Source: Hoplostethus atlanticus (taxonomy: Eukaryota; Chordata; Actinopteri; Trachichthyiformes; Trachichthyidae). From it: a stretch of 64,000 bases of DNA. This document shows, in pieces, positions 9,277 to 60,277 of the stretch (position 1 is the stretch's first letter; each line of letters opens with the position of its first letter). The translations under genes were made by a program, and so were the position numbers. The stretch lies in NCBI GenBank assembly GCA_034670405.1, contig JAXDDX010000053.1, forward strand, positions 1,846,001-1,910,000. Reading direction: 5' to 3'. The notes under the pieces are model-generated. The model searched no databases. It was not told the origin of the DNA and saw only the letters and a list, made by a program, of their open reading frames with translations.

Positions 9277-10881
9277 ATGTCCCAGAAGAACCCATCAGAC
9301 AGCGGTCAGAAAGGCTTTGCTGTGGGTCGCGGGCTCCTGGCCGCCGCAGAGACCTTGAACTTCAGTATGAACGAGCAGCGTTCTGGCCCCCCCAGCCGAC
9401 CAATGGGGGGCATGGTCTCAGGTATTGGGGTTGGTGGTGGCGGGGATGGCCAGGACTGCAACTCTCAGACGAGCCGGCGGGGTGGCGGCAGCCATCTTGG
9501 CAGCACCATGAAACTGTTTGCCAGCTTGGGGCTGTCGCCTGCCGACCTGGACGCTCTGGCACAGATCCCTGAAGAGAACATCAGTGTGGAGACGCTGCCG
9601 CACATCCTCATGCAGCTGAAGAGCCGTAAGGGGGATCCAGGAGACCGGCGCATGGCAGCCAACCCCAGAGATCTGGCTTCAATGTCCTCCGAATCGTCCT
9701 ACCGAGGTGGCAGGGAAGACTGGGATGACATGCACGTGGGTAGAATGGGTGGTCCTTCTATGGGGCAAGCTTCAGCCCGCGCCCCGCCCCCCCCAGACTT
9801 CGGTTACGGTTCCATGCAGGACGTCCCCCCCGCCCGGGGATACAATTTAGATTATGGCAACAACAGCGGCAGCAGAGAGCGGCAGTATTCAGAGCTTTCC
9901 CACCACGATTCCTACGGTGGGCTTGGCATGGGGCCCCCGGCGTCCGACCCTGTCTTCATGCAGAGGAGGATGGGCTCCCCGTCACACGGAAAAGTCCAAG
10001 ACTTCTTGGGAGTTATGCCCCCCATGTTCCCCCATGTCTGCTCTCTTTGTGACTTTGATGTGCATTCCACCATGGTGAGTACCCGTCCTTCCTCCTTTCC
10101 TCCTTTTTCCTCTCGGACTAACTTGTTGTAAATGTTCCCATTCATTGATTCCAATCCAGACACTTGAGCTCAGTTCATGTATTGTCTTCGGTCCACGAGG
10201 TCCACGAGGTCCATTCAGGTCCATTTGTAATCTTTCCTCATGCTCTCCATTGACGAAATCCAATTTGCAACATATAATTGACCTGCTTAATATCTTCTAG
10301 CCTGTATGTCTTCATTTTCTTACACTTACAGCTCAAATGCTTCAGGAATATACAGTTTGAGAAGTTTTCATCCAGCCAAATATCTTTAACATCTTACAAT
10401 TGTAGATCTAATACTTTGAAATATAAAAATATTGGGATATCTACAGGTTAATTCCTATATGATTTTATTCTCGGGGGAAACAATCTGTGCCATGTCAGTA
10501 ATCCTGTGTGTTTGTTTAGGAGTGGAACCAACACACAAACGGGCTTCGCCATGCAGAAAACCGAAGGTTGCTGCTTCAGATGTAAGTGACTCCATTACAC
10601 ACTGATGTAGTTCCAAGTTCCTTCAGGCAGAAGCGTCTTGATGTTACCACAAACTAGCTTGTACTCTTTTGAATGGAGTTATTGTAAATAGTGTGAACCT
10701 GTTATTTTGCACATTTCTGCTGAGCATTGCCACTTTGCATTTCACTACACACCTCGTGTGTGTATGTGACAATTAAACTTCTTGAATCTTGAATCAATAA
10801 AGAAGAATAAAGGACAACTGTTTTCTTGTTGTGTTCAGGTATCCAGACTGGGACCCTGGTATGGCCTCAAGCAGAGGGTAA

Positions 10882-32700: not shown

Positions 32701-35007
32701 GACTGCTGAGAAGATTTAGAAGAAGTGAAAGTGAAGGTACTGTACACGTCGTCACTAAAACCCAATATACCAAAGTGTTTCTAGGCGGGTCACTCAGGGT
32801 CTCTACCTTCTTCTTGGTGTTTTTATTCGGCTGTGGATCTGTGGGACAAAAACAACAAACAGTTAGCACAATAACATTGAGCATAATGACACGGACATAA
32901 GAGACACTCCAATAAAGGAACTTTACAAGAGTTTTGACTGGTTGTCCGGGGCTTTTGGGCGGGTCTTCCTTCCTCCTTTAGCTTCTCCGATTGGTCATCG
33001 GTCCTTGAATGAGAAGAACAGATTTTATTTGGGATGCTGCTCCGTCATAACGTCTAGCTTAGCCTCATCACAGGAAGATCTTTCAAGCTAAAACACTAAA
33101 CCACACTTTACATTATCATCTACACAGGAGTTCACCATGGTTTATGAGACACATCATTCATTACAAAGCTTCAGGTCAGTGTGAGGTATGTACTATACTG
33201 ACCTGCTGTTGGTCTCCAAGCGACAGTCCCAGTCAGGGAACCTGGACAGAGACGTGACAATGAAAACCAAACAATTCCTCTTGGGATTGTAGCCTACTTC
33301 CACTTTCCAACTAATACTACATAAAAAGCCTGACTTCTATGATGGCGACCTCTGTTGAAGGAGGGAACAGACATAAACACACTTTATATAAAAGGATGGA
33401 GGAAAAGGGAGCAGCGGTCTCAGCCGTGTGCCACGGAGGCCCAGCAGGCTGCAGGGGTCATTCCAACCAATCACTGCAGCAGCTCACTGGTTAGCTCCTC
33501 ATCTGCTGTTGGGCCTCGATGGCTCACGGTTGCGAACCTCTGATTTGCAGTGCTAACTCACAGCTGAAGCAGGTTGAGCTGTCCGTCTGCATGTTGAGGT
33601 GCGTTGATGTGCTGAATCCAGAACTGCAAAACAAAGAGCAAAAGCATGTAAGAGCTGAAGTGTCAGGCAGGAAGTTGACCGTCTGCTTCCCCTGACAGCT
33701 GCTGCAGCCACGATTCATGACGCAGCGCTGGGAAAAAAACTGTTTCCAACCCAGTCACAGCAATGACCTACCTGGCATGCGTCTGCACCAAGAAGCCAAA
33801 TGATGAACTGTATAAAGGCTGATGAGTGAAGAAGAGTACTGACCGCCCCTCCCACCCCACCCCCAAATGGAAGAAACCCCGCCCCCCCCACCCCCCTCAG
33901 ACTCTGGTAAGAATGCAGAGAAATTCAAGGAGAAGGAAAGATGGAGGTACTTACCTTCTCTGACAGAACAGTGATATCGCACAGCGAGCATGCGTACGGG
34001 TACGTGGTCGGCAGCGTCCCGTGGAAGTCGAGTGCCGCTTTCCTAGAGGGCATCGTGAGGCCGGGCCTGCCGCCGCCGCCGCCGCCGCTCTTGTTGTTGT
34101 AGGAAGCATCAGACACGCGGCGCTCGGCCCGACCTTTCGGCCGCTGTTCCTCGGGGGGAGGCGCGAACCTGTAATCAGCTGATCTGGGCTGAGAGATGCG
34201 GGGAGGGGCGTTTCTGTTGCCGTCCCCTCCTGCCGCTGAGCTGTAAGAGGGTCGGTCATTCCTGGAAACCGGACCGCCGTCCCTCCCTTTCTTACCATAA
34301 TCAGTAGACCTTCCCGTATGGGCATAATCCACTACGTAGCTGGATGATGGTGAAGTTGATGATGGTGGTGGTGGTGGCGGGTCTGGGCTAGAGTGGGGTT
34401 TTCTGGTCTTCCTGGGATTCCCCCAGCGGTCCTGCCAGTCCTGAACCTGCTCAGGTGGGAGGGGCTTGGGTGTCATGAAGGCGTGGTTCAGCGGATATTT
34501 CACGGGCTGGCTTCGAAGCCGATCCCATTCGCTGCTGGGGGGGCTGGCAGCAGGCAGACGGGATGAGCCAGGAGGATGAGAAGAGGATGAAGAGGAGGAT
34601 GATGATGAAGGGATGAGAGGGTAAGGCGTGTGCATCTCCCTCTTGCCTTTGATCTCTTTGAGGAGATGCGGGAGGGACTCAAGGGTGAGGACTTCCTCGG
34701 GCAGCTCGGCCAGCAGAGACAGGTCGTTGGGTTCAAGCCCACAGCTGCTGAGGATGCTGACAGCGCTGTCCAACCGCTGACCCGAGTACGACGGCTCCGC
34801 AGAGGCCCTGGATGAGGAAGACAACGGGTAGGAGGAGGAGGAGGAGGAGGAGGACGGCGGCAAATGAGACAACGCCTCCTGAGGTTGCCTGTAAAAGTTG
34901 TAGCCTCCCGAGGCATGATGGCGATCTGACGAGCTGTAAGTTCCAAGATTGGGCCGGGGCTCGTCGGCTGGCAGCGGTAGTCTTCTGTATGGGTAGCTGT
35001 CAGACAT
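23761..35007 (-). CDS. matr3-like: Matrin 3-like nuclear RNA-binding protein, minus-strand copy
   Basis: Paralogue of the plus-strand gene, in convergent orientation. Coding exons, high to low: 35007-33955, 33623-33562, 33241-33203, 33003-32927, 32838-32807, 32702-32583, 32449-32324, 31325-31209, 30830-30706, 30290-30043, 29717-29642, 28928-28759, 28380-28192 (frame conflict), 27727-27649, 27516-27491, 27408-27280, 26282-26152, 25928-25400, 24725-24629, 24246-24125, 23793-23761. If a 73-base intron splits the conflicted exon, the product is about 1168 residues. Domains: Ser-rich N-terminus; zinc finger 1 (YACSLCDITV, then FWIQHINAPQH); RRM1 about 422-503; RRM2 about 504-584; Arg/Ser-rich segment about 590-660; acidic region with ITLDELDEDE; RRM3 about 823-909; charged Lys/Glu repeat about 925-1085; zinc finger 2 (YFCNLCQVIYS, HCSSPAHY). 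The short last exon (EHTGKNPWTS) is the least certain part. Confidence 0.8.
25488..25600 (-). repeat. Coding GAG/GAA tract (poly-Glu) in a matrin 3-like exon
   Basis: About 113 bases of GAG triplets, broken by AAG, lie within exon 25928-25400 and encode about 37 Glu/Lys residues. The flanking protein is also charged (many Glu, Lys, Arg), so the tract extends an acidic-basic domain. Length variation between individuals is likely. Confidence 0.9.
26362..26520 (-). repeat. Dispersed ~160-bp sequence, copy 2
   Basis: Reverse complement of the sequence at 21125-21284, in the intron that splits the RRM3 coding exons (27408-27280 and 26282-26152). Like copy 1 it lies just upstream of an exon and in the sense direction of its gene. 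Confidence 0.75.
27108..27279 (-). repeat. CTGT/CTGC tetranucleotide array at a splice donor
   Basis: On the gene's strand the intron starts GTTGGTCTGTCTG and continues as about 170 bases of mixed CTGT and CTGC units. It follows the exon encoding the first half of RRM3. The same two tetramers form the arrays at 44315-44360, 51243-51330 and 60700-60800. Confidence 0.95.
28285..28357 (-). other. Possible 73-base purine-rich intron, or a frameshift in a GAG run
   Basis: Exon 28380-28192 cannot be read through in one frame. Entering in phase gives EPGDQEKPVK and then poly-Glu, but leaving in phase requires a different frame (KMEAKEPETK, then TETQPEDE). A GT (GTGAAG) at 28357 and an AG (GTTCCAG) at 28285 would remove 73 bases and restore the phase on both sides. 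This candidate intron has almost no pyrimidine tract, so a one-base indel is also possible. Confidence 0.4.
31546..32074 (+). repeat. 12-bp array grown from a retroposon tail
   Basis: About 41 tandem copies of CCTAACGTAATG (31580-32074), in an intron of the minus-strand matrin 3-like gene. They follow the sequence GTAAGTCACTTTAGATAAAA and then GAGTCTACTAAATG, which is the well-known 3' tail of fish SINE/L2-type retroposons. Variant units read CCTGACGTAATG or end in GTGATG, and the variants are clustered. The open frame across it (Met-Pro-Asn-Val repeated) is a by-product of the 12-base period. Confidence 0.9.
33412..33542. mobile_element. Short hAT-like inverted-repeat element
   Basis: Ends read CAGCGGTCTCAGCCGTG at the left and CACGGTTGCGAACCTCTG at the right; these are imperfect inverted repeats with the CAG…CTG ends typical of hAT elements. 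It is 131 bases long, non-coding, and lies in an intron of the minus-strand matrin 3-like gene. The flanking 8-mers match only partly. Confidence 0.55.
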
Positions 35008-36060
35008 GATGGAAGGTAGCTGTGGATGAACGCACTGGGTGTTTTCTGTTGCCAGGGAAGAGAGGAGGTGTAAAAATGGCTTAAAGAGAAGTGACCTTTG
35101 GGCATGTGGACGTTTGCTGGTATATCCTAAGATTTTAGAATGCAGAGTAATACGTTTTTCTCTACAGAGAGTGAGGAGGAGAAAAAGCCCCTGGAGGCTA
35201 AATGCAGGCCTGGTGGTATTTGATAGGTACAGAAATCAAGGCAGGAGGCGCAGACAGAAAAATTAACACAACCTCTTTCATATCAAAAGATCATGGGAAG
35301 GTTTTAAGGAAAAATGAGTAGTTAGTTATACATACCATTACAAACAAAAACTATAGTAAACTTTAGATGGATATCATACAAGTATCACAGCAAAACTTAA
35401 TACCACGGGAAATAAAAATACTATTAGGTATGACGAGTTACTCTCGAGTACCACAGACACTGGAAGTCCCTACAGCAGTGGTCCTCAAATCCGGGCCTCG
35501 GGGTCCAGAGTAACGTTACTGCTGGTTTTCTATTCTGCCAGGTAGTTTCCATTCTAGCTTTCTGATCAGGGATTGATTAAGACCTGGGATGCAAGGTGAA
35601 TGCAATGAACTTCCTGATAGGAGAGAAAACCAGCAGTAACGTTACTCTGGACCCCGAGGGCCGGGTTTGAGGACCTCTGTCCTGCAGGAATATTGTAAAT
35701 ATTTCGTTAGGGGCGGTGCTAGCTACAGAAGACAACCATAACATCACCAAGTAGTTTGCTATATAAATAAATGCAAGGTCAGGACCACAGAAAATACCAA
35801 ATCAAACTAGAGACTTTGCCTTGTCTAAAAATTCAAAACCTCTCTATTTATTATCGCAGTTGGCTAACGTTAGCTAACCAGCTTAGCATCTTAGCTAACG
35901 TTAGCTAACAGTAAATGGTGAGATCTGCAGAGACGGTCTTACCTTAAACACTTGACATTAATCAAAGAAATGTTTAATGCCCAGTCGCACTATGAGGCTA
36001 ACTAGCAATAATAATGGTGAGCCAGTTGTGTGTAAGAGGCTAGCTACTACCGGATACTAG
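35008..36060 (-). promoter_or_regulatory. 5' region of the minus-strand matrin 3-like gene
   Basis: A minus-strand donor (AAG followed by GTAAGA, at 35942) suggests a first non-coding exon at about 35943-36055 that splices to the exon with the start codon at 35007. Just inside the intron, 35868-35910 carries two copies of the palindrome CTAACGTTAG. A fold-back hAT-like element lies at 35476-35679. The exact transcription start is not visible. Confidence 0.4.
35476..35679. mobile_element. Fold-back hAT-type MITE
   Basis: 204 bases with long inverted repeats: the left arm starts CAGTGGTCCTCAAATCCGGG, the right arm ends CCGGGTTTGAGGACCTCTG, and the arms also share GGTCCAGAGTAACGTTACTG. Flanking 8-mers CCCTACAG and TCCTGCAG look like a decayed 8-bp target duplication, as expected for hAT. 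It has no transposase. Confidence 0.8.
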
Positions 36061-37157: not shown

Positions 37158-37390
37158 TTTATTACCACGCCTGCATGAGTGCAAACCTGCCCGTACAAAA
37201 CCAACAGTAAAAAATGTTCAGTGCTAAACAGAGCTAAATCTAAATTTCACTATTAGAAAAATATGATATCTTATTTACAGCGAAAAACTTTTTACTGGAG
37301 CTGAAGTGAATCAAAAGGGTCCCTTGGTGAGCTCCAGGAGGAATCCCTTCTTGATGCTTGGTGTTAAAGTCATCCAACAGTTTCTCTGCT

Positions 37391-40300
37391 TCAGTACACT
37401 TTCGTCCTACAAGGAAAAAAGGAAAAAGTATGATTTCAATATTTCCAGAGGTAGAAGAAGAACTTCAACTACAGGTACTCTTAAATGTACACAACGTGCT
37501 CTGCGACACCAGATCAAGGCGGAGCTTCACATGAATCCAGCAGTAAAATGCAGACTGGAGGCAGAGTCACGCTTCTAACTGGAGTCACTGGTCTAGAGGT
37601 TGGAGAAGTAGGCTGGCCAGAAGGTTGCTGGTTCGGATCCCAAGACCAGCTGGGAAAATCTGGGCAACACCAGTCATAACAGCTGGGTTTACCTGGAGAA
37701 AGAGGATATGGACACGAGGCCCAGCAGAAACTCCAGGCCGTAGAAGCAGAGCAGGATGGCGCTGAGGATGAACTCCAAGCGCAGGACGAAGGTCTGCAGC
37801 AGCAGGTAGTAGACGGCCAGCGCTGTGCAGGGCAGCAGGATGAACACTGAGATGCTGGAGGCCAGGGAGCGCTCACACAGGTTCCCCTTCCAACCTGGAC
37901 AGCACAATACTGACTCATGATATTCTGTTTCTTTTGTATCCTATTACTATTTGCTGCTGCAACGACCCATTTTTCTCGATCATTGAAGTTTCCGCCACTC
38001 TCACAAAAATGTATTATCTTGAATTACATGAAACTTATAGGGGTTCCCTGTGGCGAACTTGGGTCATTACAGCAGCAGAAAAAGGACAAAAAAAGAGAAA
38101 AATAGAACATAAATAAGAAAAGAGCAAATGGAGGTGTGATCCAAGTGACAGCAGTACAGCATACTGAGACATATACAGTATGAAAACATGAGGAAATATA
38201 GAGATATATGCAATACAGTGTGAATACAGGATGTGCAAAATGAGATTTGTTAGTACCATGTCAGATCATACATATGTAGTAGATGCTGTGTGTGACAAAC
38301 AAACAGGCCATATATATTTTCAGAGGTGTGTATGTATATGTGCAGAATTTTTGTTTTTTTTAATAAATGTAATTGAAAACTGTATTTGGCTGGAAAAACC
38401 GCAAAGGTGGACGGTAGACTTGGAATCCACCAGACCTGCTGCTAACAGAGGCCGTGGTTACACCTCGTTTCATGCGATCTCGGTAATCGGAATCTGCTAA
38501 TCGGAACACACAAGTGGTGCGTCTACACTTGACAGTTAAATGCGAGCTCTTTGGCCAGATATGTGTTAGGATTTCCGGTTCCCGCGCAGTATTTAAATAA
38601 CCATAACAACAATCCCTGAAAATGGTGCTGGGTGTGCGGGAGATTATGCTCCTTTACTTTATGTTAAGAATTGTGTGTAGTCGCGGTAGGGCCCGTACAA
38701 GGCGTTTGCTATTGAGGAGACAACAGCAGCGGCGCAAAACTGAAACTGTCCAGTCGAGTCAGCCCACAAAGCAAGTAAATATTTTGTTTCGGTATTCGTC
38801 CAGGCCCTTGCTATCGTTCTCGTCATCCATGGCTTTTCCTCCCGGTAAATAACAAAATTCGCGGCAGAACTGGAGGGAAATGGGCGTGATTTGATGACGT
38901 GTCCCCGCTGTATGCGTTTTGAGGTGCCTGATTGCGTCTAGACTATTCAGAGTTCCGAACACAAAGCGAGCTCGTCCACCTCGCGAGGTGGCCTGGCTGA
39001 TCTGAACACAATGCGAGCACAAAGCGACCTCTGTGCATCTACACCTGTCACTTCATGCAGCCTGGCGTGATCGGATGACCGAGATCGCATTGAAAAGACA
39101 GGTGTAACCACGGCCAGATTAGAAGGTTTTCCTGTCAGAAAACCGGTAGCTGCCAAAGGTGCAAATCACTTTACGTCCACTTGGTGGCAGTAATGAACCT
39201 TATCTGGAGGCCAGGCAGCATCACTGGGTCAGGAGGAGCACACCTCATTGATTTAAGCCACTTCCACTACTAACCAATTAGTCACAACAGAGTTCAAAAA
39301 CATTTAGTGTCCAAGCGGTCAGTGCTGTTTCACAATATTAATACTATAGTAGTGGGTTATAGGTTAATAGGGAGTGCAAATGTCAATGTTTCTAGACAGA
39401 CGACCCACCGTAGAAGATCCTGAGGGTCTCCAGGCCGAGGTACAGCAGGAGCAGCACCACGTCCAGAATCAGATTATTTGAAGGATAGGGAAGCAAAATC
39501 CCTGCAGAAACACACAAAAAGCACCAAGGTCAGTGAGGATGCTGGGTAGGGTGACATACAGCATTTCTTACTTCATGTATAGAATCAGATGCTGTGTATT
39601 AATTGCTCACTCCCTCATACAATGGTTCAAGTTTATGATTGATCATGAAGTGCAACAGAATTCAATACAACAGAGGCATGTTATCGTCTCAACAAGTTAC
39701 CGTCCAGTGTGCCGGTGACCCTTACTGATTTATCCATTAGACAAATTTTACCAACATTTGACGCTTAGCGGTGGTTAATTTCAGACCCTGAATCAGTCCC
39801 TGAAATGTTTTCTACTAAGGTGAAGGAGCGTTTGATTCGACTCATTTGGCTTCGACTCCAACATCTTTATTGGAGGTGGCAGGAACAAGCTTATGAGCAA
39901 TGAAACTATGATTAGTGCTGACAGCAGGTAAGGAGGCAGGTGGTTCTGGGAGCCAGCACTTCCCGTTGGTCCTTCTGGAGGTGTGGAGGCTCTAATTCAA
40001 CCAAATATACAACGTCGCAGCATTGTACATTAGGAGGTTTGCATTTTAAGATATTAGGATTTGTTGTGCAATGGGGAAAACAGTGAACTTGGGCATGGAG
40101 AGGTCCATTTCTGAGACGTTCCAAGTTGATTTTTACAATGAAATCATCCTTCAAAGTGTTTTTCCCATCTACTGTATCTCTTTTGTATATACTCATGAAG
40201 GAAGGTATTGTTCTATCAGAACCCGTCACGTTCAAGCTAAATACAAATGAACTGCAGCGGTCTGGGTTGGTTTGGGCCCAGACTGCCACCCACTGCAGCT

Positions 40301-40444
40301 TACAGACCTTTATAGATGAACATGAGAACCTCTGCCAGGAAGAAGGCTGCAAAATACCAGCTGTTGAGGTAGAGGAGAACCTGCAGCGGAGCGGACGACA
40401 GCTGAGGAAGAGGCAGTCAAGGATGAAAGAAAGAAAACATCAGA

Positions 40445-40500
<56 letters not shown>

Positions 40501-41246
40501 GAGAGAGGCTGTTTCACTTGAAGGATACGATTGGTTGCCTCCCTGCAATAAAACAAGAAAATAGGAAATATAGTTAGGGTTACACTGATATATTTAGTCA
40601 AATCAGATATCAACCACCCTCTGATATGATGGTATGATGTAGTTGATCAATTGATCAATACTACACTGGTTGTCTATGGGAAGAAGTTAACCTGAAGTAG
40701 TAGTAGTAGGAATAGTGGTAATAGTACTATTACTAAAAGTACTAATAGTAATATTAGTAACAGTAGTAGTAGTACTAATAATTATAGTAGTAGTAGTAGT
40801 ACTGGTAATGGTATCCTGGGTTTCAGTGGAGAGTTTTAGTGTCCATGAAGTTTCCGAGGCTTTTCCACTCTGACAAGAACGTTTTGGAGGAAAAACTGAA
40901 TATTTGGATTTTTGTGCACTTTGTGTATTAACTGTCAACTATCGGCCTTCAAAACCCACATCAGTCAAACCTACCAGCTATATTATTTACACTACCGTGG
41001 TCAGTAAAGTTCCAAGCTCCTATAAAGTAAAATGGGACTTTTTTCAGTTAACGACTGCTAATGCTAGCGGCAGCATAAGATGTCTGCCGAACGCGGTTTA
41101 TGGAGTAACTTAATAATAGTAGTTAAATGTTGTAGTAGGTAGCCTGTATTACCTGCCGACATGTCTATTTGGTATTATAAATTACGTTAATGCTTTAATA
41201 TCTTTACAATATTCGCGCAAATGCACAGTTACTTACCAGACGCCAT
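37391..41246 (-). CDS. tmem216: Transmembrane protein 216 (Tmem216), copy with all core exons
   Basis: Tetraspan protein of the ciliary transition zone (MKS/tectonic complex); human TMEM216 mutations cause Joubert and Meckel syndromes. Exons on the minus strand: 40401-40308 (SSAPLQVLLYLNSWYFAAFF, then LAEVLMFIYKG), 39501-39409 (LLPYPSNNLILDVV, LGLETLRIFYG), 37894-37693 (WKGNLCERSLASSISV, YYLLLQTFVLRLEFILSA), 37406-37391 (last residues TKVY, stop). These align with human TMEM216 and give four membrane segments. The first exon is uncertain: the ATG at 41246 (Met-Ala-Ser-Gly) ends at a GTAAGT donor in phase 1, but exon 2 must be entered in phase 0, so a micro-exon or another first exon is missing. 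The gene is head to head with tmed9, about 390 bases between start codons. It is the only complete copy of the two in the window. Confidence 0.88.
37590..37660 (+). mobile_element. tRNA-SINE-like fragment, copy in unit A
   Basis: The sequence GGTTGGAGAAGTAGGCTGG followed by AGAAGGTTGCTGGTTCGGAT resembles the A and B box region of fish tRNA-derived SINEs. It lies in the last intron of tmem216 and recurs in unit B at about 45865-45935. It is short and non-autonomous. Confidence 0.5.
38450..39115. mobile_element. 666-bp terminal-inverted-repeat element, absent from unit B
   Basis: Ends are GGCCGTGGTTACACCT and AGGTGTAACCACGGCC, a perfect 16-bp inverted repeat, with further inverted similarity inside (GCGATCTCGG against CCGAGATCGC). 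The insertion is flanked by AGA on both sides; unit B has a single AGA at the same place, so the target duplication is 3 bp. That fits PIF/Harbinger-like or similar DNA elements, although AGA is not the classical TWA target. No transposase frame is present, so it is a MITE. Confidence 0.85.
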
Positions 41247-41634
41247 GTTTGATTGCCATGGAAACGGCTTGGGGAAGTAGCGAACTTCCGGCAGACTAGA
41301 CGCTGAAAGGCGTATTGCTGCCCTCTAGCGTCCATGGAAACACTTACTTCAAGAGGATATAGGCCTGTAATGTGTAAAAAGTTCGAAACTCTTCTTTCAG
41401 TGATCTGATGATGTTCACCTCGACTAAATTTCCTAAATTGTCTAATTCCTTAAATAATCGCTATTTATAGTAGCGTTACTAATCTAGTCAATTTGAAGGC
41501 AGGGCCCAAAGGGCTTTAAGGACAACAACACCCACAAGTCACTTGCAGTGCCCTGATTGGCCGGAGACGAACGATGGTTTACGTGGCACTGATGGGTTTG
41601 CGCAGACTCAGAAGAAGTCTCGCCCGGCAGGAAG
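41247..41634. promoter_or_regulatory. Bidirectional promoter region, tmem216/tmed9, unit A
   Basis: 388 bases lie between the divergent start codons. CCAAT-like sequences (CTGATTGGCC at 41553-41562 and CCATGG near 41256) and CpGs are present, with no clear TATA box. The same region recurs in unit B (47998-48408) with a ~24-base insertion near 48034. Confidence 0.55.
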
Positions 41635-42746
41635 ATGGTGGCCGTCAAAATGCAGTCGTGTGTGTTGTCACTTTTACTTTTGAACGTTTTCTACAGTTTC
41701 GTCTCCTCCTTGTACTTTCACATAGGAGAGACCGAGAAGAAATGTTTTATAGAAGAAATCCCGGACGAAACGAGGATTATCGGTGAGTGCATCGGCGAAT
41801 TAAGTGACGGGCTAACGCTAGCTGCTAGCTCGCCAACTTTAGCTAGTTAGCTAATCGGCTAGCTTCTGAGCTTTTAAATCTCCTTCAGAAAGTATTCACA
41901 AAACACTGCATTGCTAACGTGTTACTTTACATGTTAAAAAAAACAACTAGTTTTTCTATTGTTGTTCATTTTAATGGGTCAACCACATGAATTTAATACC
42001 TCGTGTTTTAACTCAGTGGCCTTGAAAAGTCCTGTCCCTCTTTGAGAACATGGGTGATGGTTGTTCAGTTAACAGATGACCGTTAAATGTGGTGTCATCT
42101 GGATGGGAAACCTCGGGCTGCTCCATAGGCATTGATTGGGAAACTGACTGTAATGTTCACAGCAATGACAAAGCAGCTATAGAAGGTGACATTGTATTTA
42201 AGTGTGTGCTGTTTGGTGGATTAGACGAATGCCGAATTTAGCAGACAACCGTAGCTTGTTGGATAAAAAGTCTTGAGTCATCATGATCTACAAGGTGTGT
42301 ATTTGCCCATGAGCAAGGCATCACTTCCTTGACCGATTTGGACATGCAGTTTGACTGCATGAAGTTGAGTCTTAGTTCTTGACTTTGCCAGGAAGTGGTT
42401 TGAAGTGACTTCTCGAATTATTTCTGGTAGATCTTGCAAACAGATCGTAGTGCTGAACAGAAAGGAAGTCAGAGCAACACACACAGGATGGTAATCTAAA
42501 GGTTACGCCCCCGGGGCGAGGAGATTTGGGTACGCTGTTAGAAAGATCCTTCATCAATGACTGAGTAAGACTTTGTCAACACACTGTCACCTAACGAACC
42601 AAACCAACTCCCTTTGTACATGTCATCATGGTCTGGTACTATGCATGGGTAGCAGACCCCCGCCCTGCCGAAGTGTCCTTAGGCAACACACTGAGTCCTG
42701 AAACTCAAATAGCAGTGGACTCATCATATTAGTGCATAACTGTATA

Positions 42747-42832
<86 letters not shown>

Positions 42833-44877
42833 GGTAACTATCGGACTCAGCTGTATGACAAGCAGAAGGAGGAGTACCTACCGGCGACTCAGGGCCTGGG
42901 GATGTTTGTCGAAGTCAAAGATCCTGATGAGAAGGTTTGTTGTGACTCACCAGACAGCGTGAATGGAAGCTTTAATTCCTAGATCACCAACAAGGTAGCA
43001 AATAACATAACAGTCAAGGGTCAGAGGTCACAGCATCCTGATGACAGATGGACATTCCTGTGACTGTAGAATGATCATGGAGGTCATTGCTAGGAAAAGG
43101 AAATAAGAGCTGATTATAAATGTTTTACTTCAAGATAAAAGCACAATAGAGCAAATGGGTGAGAAAGTCGAGGCCCGCTGGACTTCGGACACGATCCCTT
43201 TGAACGTGGTTTTCAAGTGTTTGCACAACCTGAGGTGTGTTTGAGTCGTCACCGTTCAGCTGCATGTGCACCTCAACAGTTTTCAACCGGAGGGTCAGGA
43301 GACGACTTGGAGGCTCATGTTGTGAATATTTGTGTCAAATGTCTTTGAAGTAAAAAGGATGAGCGTAGGATGGTCTTTAAAATCACTTCTTAAACTGTAC
43401 GATGCTTTTAATCTTTTAATCTGTGTTTCCTGTAGGTCATCCTGTCTCGGCAGTACGGCTCCGAGGGCAGGTTTACCTTCACATCCCATACTCCAGGAGA
43501 ACACCAGATCTGCCTGCACTCCAACTCCTCCAAGTTCGCCCTCTTCGCCGGAGGCATGCTGGTAAGTAGACGGAGTTACCGAGTTACCGTTACCGGCAGT
43601 TAGTCTGTTCTGTCGGTAACCAACCATCATCTGGAGTCTTCACATCTAGTTGGCTGCTAAAATAGTGACAGTGGCTGGTGAAGTCTGGGATGCACCAGCC
43701 GACAGTGGAATTTAAATAAGCTAGGTTCCTGCCCTGTCAAGAATTGAAAATTGGCATGAAAATCATCAATTTGAAGACATTGATTATCAGCGACTTCAGT
43801 CCAGAGTGTCTGAACGTCCTGAAAAAGTCTTAAAATGTCTGAAATGATCCAAGCTGAACTCTGAAATTCAGTTTCAAATGTCTTGAAAATGTTTTGGTTT
43901 CTTGGTGAAGTGTCTTCCTGCCCCCCCACACACCGGCCACTTTATTAGGTACACCTGCTGTTCTCATTGATCTGCAATTGTTTTTCATGTCATTTGCCAA
44001 ATTGGTCTTTACTTCATTCTAACATCATCAAAAAGCTCTTAAAACGTCTTCAGTCTAAAGATATCAGCATCGGCCTCCACAAGCCCGTATCGATCGACCC
44101 CTAATTACAAGCAGCTGAAACCCCCCCTACATACTGTGACCCGTTGGTTCCTCCCGTCCCGCTGCAGAGAGTCCACCTGGACATCCAGGTCGGCGAACAC
44201 ACCAACAACTACGCTGAGATCGCCGCCGAGGACAAACTGACGGAGCGGCAGCTCCGAGTCAGACAGCTAGTGGAGCAGGTGGACCAGATCCAGAAGGAAC
44301 TGAACTACCAGAAGGTCAGTCTGTCTGTCTGCCTGTCTGTCTGCCTGCCTGTCTGTCTGTGTGTTTGTGCATCAGATAGATCAGATGCATCTACTAAGCC
44401 TCCATAAAGTTTTGAACAGGATAAAAACCGTTGTGATGGAACAATACCAGACTGAGTAGATGAACTAGGTGTTGTTTAACGTGACGCTGACGGTCGTCTT
44501 GTCTCCTTCAGTACCGTGAGGAGCGTTTCAGGCAGACCAGCGAGAGCACCAACCAGCGGGTCCTCTGGTGGTCCATCGTCCAGACCCTCATCCTGGTCGC
44601 CATCGGCTTCTGGCAGATGAGACACCTCTGGTGCCAGGACAACAGCCTCCTCTTGAATGTCACCAAAACTAAGGAGCTGATTGTGGACTTTAGGAGGACA
44701 CAACAACAGAGGACGTACTCACCACTGTGGATAAATGGGATTACTGTGGAGAGGGTGAGCAGGTATAAATACCTGGGAGTCCACATCACTGATGATCTCA
44801 TATGGTCCTCACACACAGACACTGGTGAGAAAGGCAAGGCAGCGCCTTTACCACCTCAGACAGCTGAGGAAATTTAA
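41635..44877 (+). pseudogene. tmed9: tmed9 copy A, cut and fused in frame to LINE sequence
   Basis: A p24-family cargo receptor copy with five exons: 41635-41782, 42834-42934, 43436-43561, 44168-44314, 44512-44877, all with intact splice sites. The open frame is 295 residues: 213 of TMED9 (signal peptide, GOLD domain from [12 protein letters not shown], coiled coil, membrane segment ending QMRHL) and 82 from the LINE reverse transcriptase (starting [10 protein letters not shown]). The normal tail with the COPI-binding KKLV is lost. Against copy B the coding part has about six amino-acid changes and one silent change, several at positions conserved in human TMED9 (Met to Arg in IPDETMIIG, Lys to Glu and Leu to Arg in exon 4). 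It could be expressed, since the promoter region and frame are intact, but a normal p24 role in Golgi-to-ER recycling is unlikely. Pseudogene is an inference. Confidence 0.85.
42752..42830 (+). repeat. TC dinucleotide tract at a splice acceptor
   Basis: About 40 TC units end at the CAG acceptor of tmed9 exon 2 in unit A, so the microsatellite is itself the polypyrimidine tract. The unit B counterpart is at 49671-49758 and differs in length and in CCCTC interruptions. Confidence 0.95.
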
Positions 44878-45545
44878 AGTCTCTCGGAGGATCCTTCAGT
44901 CCTTCTACTCTGGAGCTGTAGAGAGCATCCTGACAGGGAGCATCACTGCCTGGTTTGGCAGCAGCTCCGCTCAGGACAGGAAGGCTCTGCAGAGAGTAGT
45001 GGAACTACACTCCCAACCCTGCAGGACTTGTACACCAGGAGGTGCAGAACCAGAGCCTGCAGGATCATGAAGGATCCTCACCACCCCAACAACGGACTGT
45101 TTCAGCTGCTGCGGTCAGGCAAGCGCCTCCGTAGTCACGCTGCCAAAACAGAGAGACTGAGACGGAGTTTCTTTCCTCAGGCCATCAGGACTGTGACCTC
45201 TGACCTCACCAGGACCCCACCAAGACACACACACTGCCCCTCTTATGCACACACTCACACACACACACTCACACACTTAGGTAATGACTACACATAATTT
45301 ATATTATATTATACATACATATAATTTCTCTTATTTCTATATTGTTAAGTGCTCTTACTGTAGATATTGTATTTCTTTTATATAGAGCTCTTACTCTAAT
45401 ACTGTAAATATTGTGTTGGTTTTCTTTATTGTAAATAGTGTGAACTTGTTGCCCTTTGCACATTTCTGTTGAGCATTGCCACTTTCTCATTTCACTGCAC
45501 ACCCCGTGTATGTATGTGACGAATAAACCTCTTGAACTTGAACTT
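44629..45545 (+). mobile_element. 5'-truncated LINE (L2/CR1-like) at the duplication junction
   Basis: The 917-bp insert encodes the C-terminal end of a reverse transcriptase in broken frames: [34 protein letters not shown], then after a frame change [19 protein letters not shown], and further on LTGSITAWFGSS. This order (KTKE-VDFRR, then YLGV, then R-L-LR) is typical of fish non-LTR elements of the L2/CR1 group. The 3' end is TATGTGACGAATAAACCTC followed by TTGAAC repeats. Its left edge is inside tmed9 exon 5 and its right edge touches the start of unit B. Confidence 0.88.
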
Positions 45546-45670
45546 GATATCTTATTTACAGCGAAAAACGTTTTACTGGAGCTGAAGTGAATCAAAAGGG
45601 TCCCTTGGTGAGCTCCAGGAGGAATCCCTTCTTGATGCTTGGTGTTAAAGTCATCCAACAGTTTCTCTGC

Positions 45671-47191
45671 TTCAGTACACTTTCGTCCTACAAGGAAAAA
45701 AGGAAAAAGTATGATTTCAATATTTCCAGAGGTAGAAGAAGAACTTCAACTACAGGTTTTTCTTAAATGTACACAACGTGCTCTGCGACACCAGATCAAG
45801 GCGGAGCTTCACATGAACCCAGCAGTAAAACGCAGAGTCACGCTTCTAACTGGAGTCACTGGTCTAGAGGTTGGAGAAGCAGGCTGGCCAGAAGGTTGCT
45901 GGTTCGGATCCCAAGACCAGCTGGGAAAATCTGGGCAACACCAGTCATAACAGCTGGGTTTACCTGGAGAATTTACACTTGTTTACCTGGAGAATTTAGA
46001 TTTGTTAGTACCATGTCAGATCATACATATGTAGTAGATGCTGTGTGTGCAGAGACAAACAGGCCATATATATTTTCAGAGGTGTGTATGTGCAGAATTT
46101 TTGTTTTTTTTAATAAATGTAATTGAAAACTGTATTTGGCTGGAAAAACTGCAAAAGTGGACGGTAGACTTGGAATCCACCAGACCTGCTGCTAACAGAT
46201 TAGAAGGTTTTCCTGTCAGAAAACCGGTAGCTGCCAAAGGTGCAAATCACTTTACGTCCACTTGGTGGCAGTAATGAACCTTATCTGGAGGCGAGGCAGC
46301 ATCACTGGGTCAGGAGGAGCACGCCTCATTGATTTAAGCCACTTCCACTACTAACCAATTAGTCACAACAGAGTTCAAAAACATTTAGTGTCCAAGCGGT
46401 CAGTGCTGTTTCACAATATTAATACTATAGTAGTGGGTTATAGGTTAATAGGGAGTGCAAATGTCAATGTTTCTAGACAGTCTTATCCGTTAGACAAATT
46501 TTACCAACATTTGACGCTTAGCGGTGGTTAATTTCAGACCCTGAATCAGTCCCTGAAATGTTTTCTACTAAGATGAAGGAGTGTTTGATTGGACTCATTT
46601 GGCTTCCACTCCAACATCTTTATTGGAGGTGGCAGGAACAAGCTTATGAGCAATGAAACTATGATTAGTGCTGACAGCAGGTAAGGAGGCAGGTGGTTCT
46701 GGGAGCCAGCACTTCCCGTTGGTCCTTCTGGAGGTGTGGAGGCTCTAATTCAACCAAATATACAACGTCGCAGCATTGTACATTAGGAGGTTTGCATTTT
46801 AAGATATTAGGATTTGTTGTGCAATGGGGAAAACAGTGAACTTGGGCATGGAGAGGTCCATTTCTGAGACGTTCCAAGTTGATTTTTACAATGAAATCAT
46901 CCTTCAAAGTGTTTTTCCCATCTACTGTATCTCTTTTGTATATACTCATGAAGGAAGGTATTGTTCTATCAGAACCCGTCACGTTCAAGCTAAATACAAA
47001 TGAACTGCAGCGGTCTGGGTTGGTTTGGGCCCAGACTGCCACCCACTGCAGCTTACAGACCTTTATAGATGAACATGAGAACCTCTGCCAGGAAGAAGGC
47101 TGCAAAATACCAGCTGTTGAGGTAGAGGAGAACCTGCAGCGGAGCGGACGACAGCTGAGGAAGAGGCAGTCAAGGATGAAAGAAAGAAAAC

Positions 47192-47240
<49 letters not shown>

Positions 47241-47997
47241 AGACAGAGAGAGAGGGAGGCTGTTTCACTTGAAGGATACGATTGGTTGCCTCCCTGCAAT
47301 AAAACAAGAAAATAGGAAATATAGTTAGGGTTACACTGATATATTTAGTCAAATCAGATATCAACCACCCTCTGATATGATGGTATGATGTAGTTGATCA
47401 ATTGATCAATACTACACTGGTTGTCTATGGGAAGAAGTTAACCTGAAGTAGTAGTAGTAGGAATAGTGGTAATAGTACTATTACTAAAAGTACTAATAGT
47501 AATATTAGTAACAGTAGTAGTAGTACTAATAATTATAGTAGTAGTAGTAGTACTGGTAATGGTATCCTGGGTTTCAGTGGAGAGTTTTAGTGTCCATGAA
47601 GTTTCCGAGGCTTTTCCACTCTGACAAGAACGTTTTGGAGGAAAAACTGAATATTTGGATTTTTGTGCACTTTGTGTATTAACTGTCAACTATCGGCCTT
47701 CAAAACCCACATCAGTCAAACCTACCAGCTATATTATTTACACTACCGTGGTCAGTAAAGTTCCAAGCTCCTATAAAGTAAAATGGGACTTTTTTCAGTT
47801 AACGACTGCTAATGCTAGCGGCAGCATAAGATGTCTGCCGAACGCGGTTTATGGAGTAACTTAATAATAGTAGTTAAATGTTGTAGTAGGTAGCCTGTAT
47901 TACCTGCCGACATGTCTATTTGGTATTATAAATTACGTTAATGCTTTAATATCTTTACAATATTCGCGCAAATGCACAGTTACTTACTAGACGCCAT
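45671..47997 (-). pseudogene. tmem216: tmem216 copy B, exons 3 and 4 deleted
   Basis: Exon 2 is retained without change (47154-47061), the short last coding exon is retained (about 45687-45672), and the first ATG is present at 47997. Exons encoding the middle and C-terminal membrane segments are missing: at about 45975 the sequence jumps from the exon 4 border to intron, with a short repeated filler (TTTACCTGGAGAATTTA twice), and at 46480 it jumps across exon 3. The last base of the candidate first exon is G to A (TCTG to TCTA before GTAAGT). Only one of four membrane segments could be made, so this copy is non-functional. Confidence 0.9.
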
Positions 47998-48408
47998 GTT
48001 TGATTGCCATGGAAACGGCTTGGGGAAGTAGCGACAAATTCTTCTTCTTTTTTTTAAACTTCCGGCAGACTAGACGCTGAAAGGCGTATTGCTGCCCTCT
48101 AGCGTCCATGGAAACACTTACTTCAAGAGGATATAGGCCTGTAATGTGTAAAAAGTTCGAAACTCTTCTTTCAGTGATCTGATGATGTTCACCTCGACTA
48201 CATTTCCTAAATTGTCTAATTCCTTAAATAATCGCTATTTATAGTAGCGTTACTAATCTAGTCAATTTGAAGGCAGGGCCCAAAGGGCTTTAAGGACAAC
48301 AACACCCACAAGTCACTTGCAGTGCCCTGATTGGCCGGAGACGAACGATGGTTTACGTGGCACTGATGGGTTTGCGCAGACTCAGAAGAAGTCTCGCCCG
48401 GCAGGAAG

Positions 48409-49665
48409 ATGGTGGCCGTCAAAATGCAGTCGTGTGTGTTGTCACTTTTACTTTTGAACGTTTTCTACAGTTTCGTCTCCTCCTTGTACTTTCACATAGG
48501 AGAGACCGAGAAGAAATGTTTTATAGAAGAAATCCCGGACGAAACGATGATTATCGGTGAGTGCATCGGCGAATTAAGTGACGGGCTAACGCTAGCTGCT
48601 AGCTCGCCAACTTTAGCTAGTTAGCTAATCGGCTAGCTTCTGAGCTTTTAAATCTCCTTCAGAAAGTATTCACAAAACACTGCATTGCTAACGTGTTACT
48701 TTACATGTTAGGGAATCAATGCAACTTACAGACACACTGTTATATCTGTATGGTTGGTTACTGGCTGGTTAGCTACTCAAAGTTACTACACGTCACCGAG
48801 TGTCAAGCTGTCAAACATGGGGTCAGGTCTACTCTCCAGAGCTCAGGGTGTCTGGTTGCTGAAAAACTCGTTTTTCTATTGTTGTTCATTTTAATGGGTC
48901 AACCACATGAATTTAATACCTCGTGTTTTAACTCAGTGGCCTTGAAAAGTCCTGTCCCTCTTTGAGAACATGGGTGATGGTTGTTCAGTTAACAGATGAC
49001 CGTTAAATGTGGTGTCATCTGGATGGGAAACCTCGGGCTGCTCCATAGGCATTGATTGGGAAACTGACTGTAATGTTCACAGCAATGACAAAGCAGCTAT
49101 AGAAGGTGACATTGTATTTAAGTGTGTGCTGTTTGGTGGATTAGACGAATGCCGAATTTAGCAGACAACCGTAGCCTGTTGGATAAAAAGTCTTGAGTCA
49201 TCATGATCTACAAGGTGTGTATTTGCCCATGAGCAAGGCATCACTTCCTTGACCGATTTGGACATGCAGTTTGACTGCATGAAGTTGAGTCTTAGTTCTT
49301 GACTTTGCCAGGAAGTGGTTTGAAGTGACTTCTCGAATTATTTCTGGTAGATCTTGCAAACAGATCGTAGTGCTGAACAGAAAGGAAGTCAGAGCAACAC
49401 ACACAGGATGGTAATCTAAAGGTTACGCCCCCGGGGCGAGGAGATTTGGGTACGCTGTTAGAAAGATCCTTCATCAATGACTGAGTAAGACTTTGTCAAC
49501 ACACTGTCACCTAACGAACCAAACCAACTCCCTTTGTACATGTCATCATGGTCTGGTACTATGCATGGGTAGCAGACCCCCGCCCTGCCGAAGTGTCCTT
49601 AGGCAACACACTGAGTCCTGAAACTCAAATAGCAGTGGACTCATCATACTAGTGCATAACTGTAT

Positions 49666-49748
<83 letters not shown>

Positions 49749-51641
49749 TCTCCCTCTAGGTAACTATCGGACTCAGCTGTATGACAAGCAGAAGGAGGAG
49801 TACCTACCGGCGACTCAGGGCCTGGGGATGTTTGTCGAAGTCAAAGATCCTGATGAGAAGGTTTGTTGTGACTCACCAGACAGCGTGAATGGAAGCTTTA
49901 ATTCCTAGATCACCAACAAGGTAGCAAATAACATAACAGTCAGAGGGTCAGAGGTCACAGCATCCTGACGACAGATGGACATTCCTGTGACTGTAGAATG
50001 ATCATGGAGGTCATTGCTAGGAAAAGGAAATAAGAGCTGATTATAAATGTTTTACTTCAAGATAAAAGCACAATAGAGCAAATGGGTGAGAAAGTCGAGG
50101 CCCGCTGGACTTCGGACACGATCCCTTTGAACGTGGTTTTCAAGTGTTTGCACAACCTGAGGTGTGTTTGAGTCGTCACCGTTCAGCTGCGTGTGCACCT
50201 CAACAGTTTTCAACCGGAGGGTCAGGAGACGACTTGGAGGCTCATGTTGTGAATATTTGTGTCAAATGTCTTTGAAGTAAAAAGGATGAGCGTAGGATGG
50301 TCTTTAAAATCACTTCTTAAACTGTACGATGCTTTTAATCTTTTAATCTGTGTTTCCTGTAGGTCATCCTGTCTCGGCAGTACGGCTCCGAGGGCAGGTT
50401 TACCTTCACATCCCATACTCCAGGAGAACACCAGATCTGCCTGCACTCCAACTCCTCCAAGTTCGCCCTCTTCGCCGGAGGCATGCTGGTAAGTAGACGG
50501 AGTTACCGAGTTACCGTTACCGGCAGTTAGTCTGTTCTGTCGGTAACCAACCATCATCTGGAGTCTTCACATCTAGTTGGCTGCTAAAATAGTGACAGTG
50601 GCTGGTGAAGTCTGGGATGCACCAGCCGACAGTGGAATTTAAATAAGCTAGGTTCCTGCCCTGTCAAGAATTGAAAATTGGCATGAAAATCATCAATTTG
50701 AAGACATTGATTATCAGCGACTTCAGTCCAGAGTGTCTGAACGTCCTGAAAAAGTCTTAAAATGTCTGAAATGATCCAAGCTGAACTCTGAAATTCAGTT
50801 TCAAATGTCTTGAAAATGTTTTGGTTTCTTGGTGAAGTGTCTTCCTGCCCCCCCACACACCGGCCACTTTATTAGGTACACCTGCTGTTCTCATTGATCT
50901 GCAATTGTTTTTCATGTCATTTGCCAAATTGGTCTTTACTTCATTCTAACATCATCAAAAAGCTCTTAAAACGTCTTCAGTCTAAAGATATCAGCATCGG
51001 CCTCCACAAGCCCGTATCGATCGACCCCTAATTACAAGCAGCTGAAACCCCCCCCTACATACTGTGACCCGTTGGTTCCTCCCGTCCCGCTGCAGAGAGT
51101 CCACCTGGACATCCAGGTCGGCGAACACACCAACAACTACGCTGATATCGCCGCCAAGGACAAACTGACGGAGCTGCAGCTCCGAGTCAGACAGCTGGTG
51201 GAGCAGGTGGACCAGATCCAGAAGGAACAGAACTACCAGAGGGTCAGTCTGCCTGTCTGCCTGTCTGCCTGTCTGCCTGTCTGCCTGTCTGCCTGTCTGT
51301 CTGCCTGTCTGCCTGTCTGTCTGCCTGTGTGAAACTGAGTGTGTTTGTGCTTCAGATAGATCAGATGCATCTACTAAGCCTCCATAAAGTTTTGAACAGG
51401 ATAAAAACCGTTGTGATGGAACAATACCAGACTGAGTAGATGAACTAGGTGTTGTTTAACGTGACGCTGACGGTCGTCTTGTCTCCTTCAGTACCGTGAG
51501 GAGCGTTTCAGGCAGACCAGCGAGAGCACCAACCAGCGGGTCCTCTGGTGGTCCATCGTCCAGACCCTCATCCTGGTCGCCATCGGCTTCTGGCAGATGA
51601 GACACCTCAAGAGCTTCTTCGAGGCCAAGAAGCTGGTGTAG
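48409..51641 (+). CDS. tmed9: Transmembrane emp24 domain-containing protein 9 (Tmed9), intact copy
   Basis: A p24 cargo receptor cycling between ER, ERGIC and cis-Golgi, acting in COPI and COPII vesicle traffic. Five exons, 48409-48556, 49760-49860, 50363-50488, 51096-51242, 51492-51641, give 223 residues. Residues 1-25 are a signal peptide ([20 protein letters not shown]); the mature chain starts [20 protein letters not shown] as in human TMED9. The GOLD domain follows, with [20 protein letters not shown] and the conserved Cys in ICLHSN, then a coiled coil (about 140-185), one membrane segment (about 190-210), and a cytosolic tail ending FFEAKKLV, which carries the FF and dilysine signals for COPII and COPI. 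The motif [20 protein letters not shown] is closer to TMED9 than to TMED4. This is the only complete copy in the window. Next downstream is b4galt7, as in human. Confidence 0.96.
49671..49758 (+). repeat. TC dinucleotide tract at a splice acceptor, unit B
   Basis: The counterpart of 42752-42830, directly before the TAG acceptor of tmed9 exon 2. It is longer and ends in CCCTCTCTCCCTCTAG. Confidence 0.95.
51243..51330 (+). repeat. CTGC/CTGT array at a splice donor, unit B
   Basis: Starts at the donor of tmed9 exon 4 (GTCAGTCTGCCTGTCTGCC). The unit A counterpart (44315-44360) is about half as long, so the array has changed length since duplication. Confidence 0.95.

Positions 51642-55493: not shown

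Positions 55494-60277
<4,784 letters not shown>

Follow-up and report, generated by a model that had tools for sequence, protein, structure and literature searches.

A LINE fragment at the seam between two young tandem copies of the divergent tmem216-tmed9 gene pair in Hoplostethus atlanticus

Results

Two tandem copies of the tmem216-tmed9 block

The window analysed here is a stretch of 64,000 nucleotides from contig JAXDDX010000053.1 of Hoplostethus atlanticus (assembly GCA_034670405.1), in which tmem216 (reverse strand) and tmed9 (forward strand) lie head to head in a 7,365-bp block. The block is present as two tandem copies, units A and B, with the 3' end of a LINE between them:

37264 to 44628, no strand assigned: unit A, 7,365 bp
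44629 to 45547, forward strand: LINE 3' end, 5'-truncated, between the units, 919 bp
45545 to 51608, no strand assigned: unit B, 6,064 bp

The gene kept is tmem216 in unit A and tmed9 in unit B, and unit B is the shorter through deletions of its own and a mobile-element insert found only in A. Aligned pieces of the two units are 94.7–99.3% identical, which bears out the almost identical tandem pair of the preliminary description. Its view of a young duplication also holds: substitutions number 50 in 5,806 aligned bases (0.86%), or 25 in 5,428 (0.46%) with microsatellites and indel edges masked, a divergence within the allelic range for fish. The differences are clustered along the block (p 0.005, masked sites), the raw difference being 1.3% at the left edge, 1.4% at 39730–40520 and 2.6% at the right edge, and 0.18% in the upstream region, 0.73% in tmed9 intron 1 and 0.15% at 42835–44167; this unevenness counts against a simple clock. 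Among the 66 matches listed in the 633-Mb assembly, the block core is full-length at A and B only: three matches belong to the block (one for A, two for the pieces of B), and a third copy or haplotig was rejected because the others are short, with 73–83% identity.

tmem216 is kept in unit A and broken in unit B

The gene on the reverse strand was identified as tmem216 by a match to the whole Pfam Transmemb_17 profile (E 2e-33); the query began MASG, with residues from a candidate first exon, and the match starts at residue 12. The features of the two copies, and of the region upstream of them, are as follows:

37158 to 37163, reverse strand: AATAAA following tmem216-A, beyond the edge of unit A
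37391 to 41246, reverse strand: tmem216-A, the good copy, with 40308–40401 (TM1), 39409–39501 (TM2), 37693–37894 (TM3-4) and the last coding piece, 37391–37406
38450 to 39116, no strand assigned: mobile element in a tmem216-A intron, 667 bp, inverted ends of about 15 bp, 3-bp AGA target duplication
45672 to 47997, reverse strand: tmem216-B, broken, with the TM1 exon (47061–47154) and the last exon kept, and TM2 and TM3-4 deleted
45972 to 45999, no strand assigned: 28-bp filler repeating the flanking TTTACCTGGAGAA, at the seam where unit B has lost the TM3-4 exon
46478 to 46484, no strand assigned: seam where unit B has lost the TM2 exon, with 328 bp of A absent
48034 to 48056, no strand assigned: 23 bp that only B has, within the upstream region shared by the two genes and near the tmem216 start

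The TM1, TM2, TM3-4 and last exons of tmem216-A are all in frame, with GT-AG borders. The candidate short first exon (41237–41246) is not in phase with the TM1 exon, and no convincing candidate was found for a middle exon linking the two. In tmem216-B the TM2 exon is gone and the TM3-4 exon is reduced to about 8 bases; genome-wide, these two exons are matched in unit A only (five matches in all), save for one distant 33% match to the TM3-4 part on contig C1. The filler at the TM3-4 deletion is as in templated end joining. Moreover, tmem216-B is cut in its 3' UTR at the unit edge, without the first AATAAA/ATTAAA seen after the stop in A; the AATAAA of tmem216-A lies outside the duplicated block and is therefore absent from unit B. 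Unit B also represents the empty site for the 667-bp mobile element. The distance from the candidate first exon of tmem216 to the ATG of tmed9 is 389 bp in unit A and 412 bp in unit B, and this shared upstream interval differs by one substitution and the one 23-bp indel.

tmed9 is intact in unit B and runs into the LINE in unit A

The assignment of tmed9 follows from Pfam EMP24_GP25L (E 2e-59) and from the solved structure of human TMED9, 9cjk (E 3e-125). Its features are:

41635 to 44628, forward strand: tmed9-A, exons 41635–41782, 42834–42934, 43436–43561, 44168–44314 and 44512–44628, exon 5 cut
44629 to 44877, forward strand: tmed9-A reading frame continued within the LINE, 82 residues and a stop
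45522 to 45527, forward strand: AATAAA within the LINE 3' end, a polyA signal that tmed9-A may use
48409 to 51641, forward strand: tmed9-B, intact, exons 48409–48556, 49760–49860, 50363–50488, 51096–51242 and 51492–51641
48716 to 48861, no strand assigned: 146-bp part of tmed9 intron 1 that B has and A lacks

tmed9-B is complete, with 223 aa and a C-terminal KKLV. Exons 1–4 of tmed9-A are open and exon 5 enters the LINE at 44629; the last 10 codons and the stop are lost, the LINE-encoded residues continue in frame, and the open frame is a 295-aa chimera. To call tmed9-A dead, as had been done, goes too far, for the chimera can still be encoded. Coding differences between the two copies comprise six nonsynonymous and one synonymous change, and human TMED9 sides with tmed9-B at five of the six nonsynonymous ones; judged from these comparisons, tmed9-A looks unconstrained. 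According to PMC11414720, the normal 10-residue tail of tmed9 carries COPI and COPII signals. The tmed9-A chimera has the full lumenal domain and the membrane span, with a predicted LINE-encoded cytosolic tail that lacks COPI/COPII signals. It adjoins the still near-identical shared upstream region.

The preliminary description was right, then, in its inventory of the locus: unit A keeps tmem216 and has a truncated tmed9, unit B keeps tmed9 and has lost two tmem216 exons, the net outcome is one good copy per gene, about 7 kb apart, and either copy of the shared upstream region now has a good gene on one side and a broken one on the other.

The LINE fills the seam to the base

The 919-bp LINE fragment at the seam was absent from that description. 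It occupies the space between the units to the base, both of its edges being unit edges. At the 5' seam, tmed9-A and the LINE are joined at 44628/44629 with a 3-nt overlap, CTC; at the 3' seam the overlap is TGA (45545–45547), at once the last 3 bases of the LINE and the first 3 of unit B. The CTC microhomology was judged from the sequence upstream of the base corresponding to base 1 of the seam LINE, which reads ...CTGTCACTC in 27 of the 29 other LINE loci examined (L031 and L032, both among the 27, appear to be a single locus counted twice). Because these 27 loci extend further upstream, the seam LINE is 5'-truncated. Its 3' end is the natural one: in most loci compared, a CTTGAA-type repeat tail is followed by unrelated flank, as is also seen in the second LINE copy of the window. 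Truncation at the 5' end and a natural 3' end are marks of retrotransposition, and the seam LINE has both. The layout, the two 3-base overlaps, these two marks and the gene lesions can be read directly. One reading-frame piece of the seam LINE matches Pfam ALKBH8_N, a model that presumably picks up LINE proteins.

Besides simple repeats and short weak matches, LINE matches in the window are confined to 44629–45547 and a distant copy at 10679–10793. The outer edges of the units have none, neither that of A (37263) nor that of B, where the sequence from 51609 onward is tmed9 exon 5; recombination between two LINE copies was rejected as the source, the outer block edges being without LINE. Private substitutions of the seam LINE number 8 in 919 (0.87%, an upper limit), against 0.46–0.86% between A and B, and amount to about two to four times the prediction from half the A–B divergence. 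The last fifth of the element is distinct: it is 98.9% identical to L004, and none of the other 28 loci exceeds 91.0%. L004, which is not the nearest copy in the first fifth, also joins this unusual last fifth to the common LINE body, and since it shows the same combination there is no sign that the seam LINE is an assembler merge of two copies. A long target duplication was found at none of the 22 other copies with their 5' end in the flank (0.5–1.4 kb of 5' flank searched), which would make the event unusual for this LINE family. No relatives of the LINE were found in viral contigs, and its RNA tail folds no better than shuffled sequences.

Discussion

The reading that we favor, at a probability of roughly 0.6, is that a LINE cDNA bridge made the tandem duplication and the seam LINE together, the inner gene copies being cut at that moment and decaying later. 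Target-primed reverse transcription would have started at a nick in the tmem216 3' UTR (37264), and the 5' end of the incomplete cDNA, rather than closing a few bases away on its own chromatid, would have joined a broken tmed9 exon 5, 7.4 kb downstream on the sister chromatid or the homologue, through the 3-base microhomology CTC. The product would be block A, the LINE fragment and block B, that is, a 7,365-bp target-site duplication. As the genes point outward, each breakpoint would cut the inner copy of one gene and leave the outer copies whole: tmed9-A would lose its last 10 codons and stop and gain 82 LINE-encoded residues together with the LINE polyA signal, and tmem216-B would lose its polyA signal at the breakpoint. 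Later decay of the redundant halves would then account for the two-exon loss by deletions in tmem216-B and for the amino-acid changes in tmed9-A. We infer the order of these events, the bridging step, the use of the polyA signals and transcription of either broken copy. The private divergence of the LINE, of the same order as that between A and B, is compatible with a single LINE and duplication event; its excess could stem from gene conversion in mid-block or from variants that the source copy carried, or else from an older LINE.

One copy of each gene was thus probably cut at the moment of duplication. Since the breakpoints cut both outward-facing 3' ends, the outer copies are intact by geometry. 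The locus had been described as complementary decay, or reciprocal loss, of a duplicated pair, which holds for the exon deletions of tmem216-B and the amino-acid drift of tmed9-A but not for the truncation of tmed9-A or the 3' UTR cut of tmem216-B, both of which lie at unit edges. Both units did not start with intact copies of both genes, as the cuts fall at the unit edges themselves, and the complementary outcome is due to the breakpoint positions. Reciprocal gene loss after duplication is known as divergent resolution, and the locus resembles it in having one intact copy per gene in different units; unlike divergent resolution, the first damage to both genes sits at the duplication breakpoints, and only the later damage is decay.

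Two target copies flanking a 5'-truncated element with a natural 3' end recall an ordinary LINE target-site duplication, although the target duplication here would be 7,365 bp, as against a median of 21 bp for canonical human mobile-element insertions (PMC12350158). The layout would be that of a target-site duplication of 7.4 kb, and it fits the LINE-cDNA bridge put forward for human tumours, in which, as drawn in Figure 7b of Rodriguez-Martin et al. (2020; PMC7058536), L1 cDNA invades a break overhang on the sister chromatid, downstream of integration, and a direct tandem duplication results. What the two share is a direct tandem duplication with a short LINE at its seam, and the proposed bridging by cDNA. 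The same report gives short junction microhomology (1–5 bp) for 75% of the L1 deletions whose 5' breakpoint was resolved (47 of 63), and the fish seams have 3-base overlaps. In contrast, the duplication shown there is somatic, involves human L1 and spans 22.6 Mb, whereas the case in the fish assembly spans 7.4 kb and has a CTTGAA-type tail, with breakpoints that fall in both genes of a divergent pair. In the open-licence literature we found no paper with both tmem216 and tmed9, and none on teleost segmental duplication with target-primed reverse transcription.

An identical final layout, down to the absence of a LINE left of A, could be reached in two steps: an ordinary LINE insertion into the tmem216 3' UTR on one haplotype, and later an end-joining exchange between the LINE-carrying and a LINE-free homologue, with one break within the LINE and the other in tmed9 exon 5, to produce the duplication. 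Exchange between homologues would supply a starting divergence, in keeping with the clustered A–B differences, and the LINE may then predate the units; however, two events are required where one suffices, and we consider this route unlikely. Replication template switching of an MMBIR-like kind, copying a LINE stretch from another locus into the seam of a tandem duplication, would suit the short microhomology at both seams, but a stop at the natural LINE 3' end is not expected from it, which leaves it quite improbable. If an ordinary duplication had been followed by a separate, independent LINE insertion into the seam and, after that, by neutral reciprocal loss, the net gene content would be the same. 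Such an insertion had to hit the seam exactly, for otherwise block sequence would stand on both sides of the LINE, and none is spare; with both LINE edges coinciding with unit edges, we rejected this very improbable course.

It is also unlikely that the assembler created the arrangement, by joining two haplotypes head to tail or by merging two heterozygous LINE insertions. The A–B divergence does resemble that between fish alleles, and at least one redundant pair exists among the 30 LINE loci, L031 (contig C1018) and L032 (contig C101), which match at 98.7% over 3.6 kb, 3' flank included; that pair, however, differs by 8 mismatches over 3,646 aligned bases (0.22%), less than A differs from B. 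Moreover, no N occurs anywhere in the window, overlaps of 3 bases are too short for an assembler, so that each seam would be expected in reads, and the 66 matches listed for the assembly include no third block copy. In a plain haplotype join, the LINE should lead into the remainder of tmed9 exon 5 and not into the tmem216 3' UTR. A merge would need two LINE insertions in the same direction and conserved genes carrying two damaged alleles in trans, and L004 likewise has the unusual last fifth on a common body.

Chimeric genes can be born at tandem-duplication breakpoints, and tmed9-A is similarly a fusion made by a breakpoint, although its partner is a LINE reading frame and not another gene. 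That tmed9-A gives rise to an expressed chimeric p24 receptor that modifies or disturbs TMED9 traffic, jointly with a one-step germline split of the pair by a LINE via a kilobase target-site duplication, seems to us rather doubtful.

Under the LINE-cDNA bridge, the locus would be a young and legible case in which one retrotransposition event could both duplicate a divergent gene pair and part its genes from their common upstream region. It suggests a rule: when a tandem duplication cuts two genes that both point outward, each unit is left from the beginning with a good copy of a different one of them. Where apparent reciprocal loss is met elsewhere, truncation at breakpoints should be checked before decay is assumed. 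The locus also offers a natural test of whether the expression of tmem216 and tmed9 depends on one common promoter.

The duplicated block and its genes

The window is part of one contig (C53) of the 633-Mb assembly. Here tmem216 (minus strand) and tmed9 (plus strand) stand head to head, about 0.4 kb apart, in a block that occurs twice in tandem, as the preliminary description had proposed.

Features of the duplicated block (window coordinates)
37264-44628: unit A, tmem216 (-) and tmed9 (+)
44629-45547: 3' end of a LINE, between A and B
45545-51608: unit B, tmem216 (-) and tmed9 (+)
38450-39116: mobile element of 667 bp in unit A only, with an empty site in B

Among the 66 matches listed in a search of the assembly with the block core (40521-42740), only A and B match in full, and the remaining 63 of the 66 are short (73-83% identity). 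Gene identities rest on Pfam and on the solved structure of human TMED9. The assignment of one kept gene to each unit also stands: tmed9-B encodes a full-length protein of 223 aa with the C-terminus KKLV, and in tmem216-A the exons encoding the membrane spans (TM1, TM2 and TM3-4) and the last exon are all in frame, the first exon being a candidate. Since in zebrafish the first membrane span is seemingly encoded in exon 3 (PMC7425700), a small exon of tmem216-A may have been overlooked. Of the tmem216-B exons, TM1 and the last are retained; for TM2 and TM3-4, unit A gives the only exon matches in the assembly, bar one distant match elsewhere (33%).

Downstream of tmed9, 57385-57720 (+) matches Pfam Glyco_transf_7N and is presumably the start of a b4galt7-like gene; in human, B4GALT7 adjoins TMED9. 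Two further reading frames, 9247-10131 (+) and 33925-35235 (-), were named from protein text as presumably matrin-3-like, and a Pfam search with parts of both gave no match. The window also holds a satellite-like array (15695-17081; step of 37 bp and multiples), a 12-bp repeat array with 42 registered copies through which three long reading frames are open (31458-32196), and an inverted pair of 165-bp repeats (21126-21290 and 26356-26520; 97.6% identity).

The LINE at the seam and the origin of the duplication

The 919-bp element at the seam is repeated in the assembly (40 of 3,514 candidate places were scored) and was labelled a LINE because it has many copies whose 5' ends vary and whose shared 3' end carries short tandem repeats, and because a piece of its reading frame matches Pfam ALKBH8_N, a model linked to LINEs. 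The seam copy is 5'-truncated: at 27 of 29 other sampled loci, further element sequence (CTGTCACTC) precedes the point where it begins. At the 5' seam, exon 5 of tmed9 ends with GACACCTC, CTC being common to exon and element; at the other, the LINE ends with CTTGAACTTGAACTTGA and is followed by TATCTTATTT, the tmem216 3' UTR, with TGA common to both. Thus A passes into the LINE, and the LINE into B, without spare sequence at either seam. In most other copies the end is a run of CTTGAA-type repeats, beyond which the DNA is unrelated. The LINE is absent to the left of A, and to the right of the shared part B runs on into ordinary tmed9 exon 5 sequence. Elsewhere in the window, a second, short copy of the LINE 3' end (10679-10793; 87% identity over 118 aligned bases) gives an independent view of its natural 3' end.

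This layout is the usual trace of a LINE insertion, the same sequence on both sides, but with a repeated target of 7,365 bp. In the route proposed for human tumours (PMC7058536), LINE cDNA joins a second break downstream on a sister chromatid, and the product is a direct tandem duplication whose seam holds the LINE. We consider the same mechanism the most likely origin here (probability about 0.6): LINE cDNA would have joined a second downstream break on the sister chromatid, and this joining would have duplicated the 7,365-bp block in direct tandem, with the LINE at the seam. An older LINE insertion followed by end joining between homologues would leave an identical final layout, and is an unlikely alternative. 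Template switching is very improbable, because the LINE halts at its natural end.

That the assembler produced the arrangement seems improbable. The assembly does contain at least one redundant pair, two contigs with the same LINE locus (L031 on C1018 and L032 on C101) that match at 98.7% over 3.6 kb, shared 3' flank included, and represent a residual haplotig or a real duplication, and a merger of two insertions inside the LINE is conceivable. However, the window is without N, only 3 bases are common at each seam, so that assembler overlap offers no explanation, and joined haplotypes would not pass from the LINE into the tmem216 3' UTR.

Age and later changes

Units A and B differ by 50/5806 substitutions raw and by 25/5428 after masking. 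These are clustered (p 0.005; 10,000 shuffles), raw divergence being 0.15% and 0.18% in some mid-block stretches, 0.73% in tmed9 intron 1 and 1.3-2.6% at the edges; gene conversion in mid-block would suffice for this unevenness, as would an origin from two different haplotypes. Substitutions private to the LINE (8/919) give a maximum for its age. At substitution rates usual for fish, the event would be roughly 10^5 to 10^6 years old.

Several changes probably came later than the duplication. Unit B lost the TM3-4 exon in a deletion whose seam carries a filler repeating 13 bases of flank, and the TM2 exon in a separate second deletion; a 23-bp extra stretch lies close to its tmem216 start. In A, tmed9 differs from the B copy, 146 bp of its intron 1 are missing and the 667-bp element is present. 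Six nonsynonymous changes and one synonymous change separate the tmed9 copies; were tmed9-A constrained at a dN/dS of 0.05, six or more nonsynonymous changes out of seven would arise with a probability of about 8e-5, and human TMED9 matches B at 5/6 nonsynonymous sites and A at 1/6. The 667-bp element has inverted ends of about 15 bp and a 3-bp AGA target duplication; its 41 matches listed genome-wide, itself included, comprise 37 other approximately full-length copies, the nearest at 98%.

Complementary losses and the breakpoints

The block starts in the tmem216 3' UTR, 127 bases past the stop codon (final base at 37391), and its other end lies within the last exon of tmed9. In tmed9-A, MRHL is followed, in the same exon, by 82 residues in the LINE frame and a stop at 44877, with an AATAAA of the LINE downstream at 45522; the FF and KK signals, which in TMED9 serve COPII and COPI according to PMC11414720, are lost. 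tmem216-B is without the AATAAA of 37158, a site outside the block; the next on its strand lies within the LINE (45425), so tmem216-B may still have a signal. As both genes point outward, the outer copies, tmem216-A on the left and tmed9-B on the right, are whole, and the inner copies are cut. The complementary losses had been attributed to reciprocal decay, an origin that is not supported, because the breakpoints themselves cut both inner copies: the retention of one good copy of each gene is set by the breakpoints and not by two independent decays.
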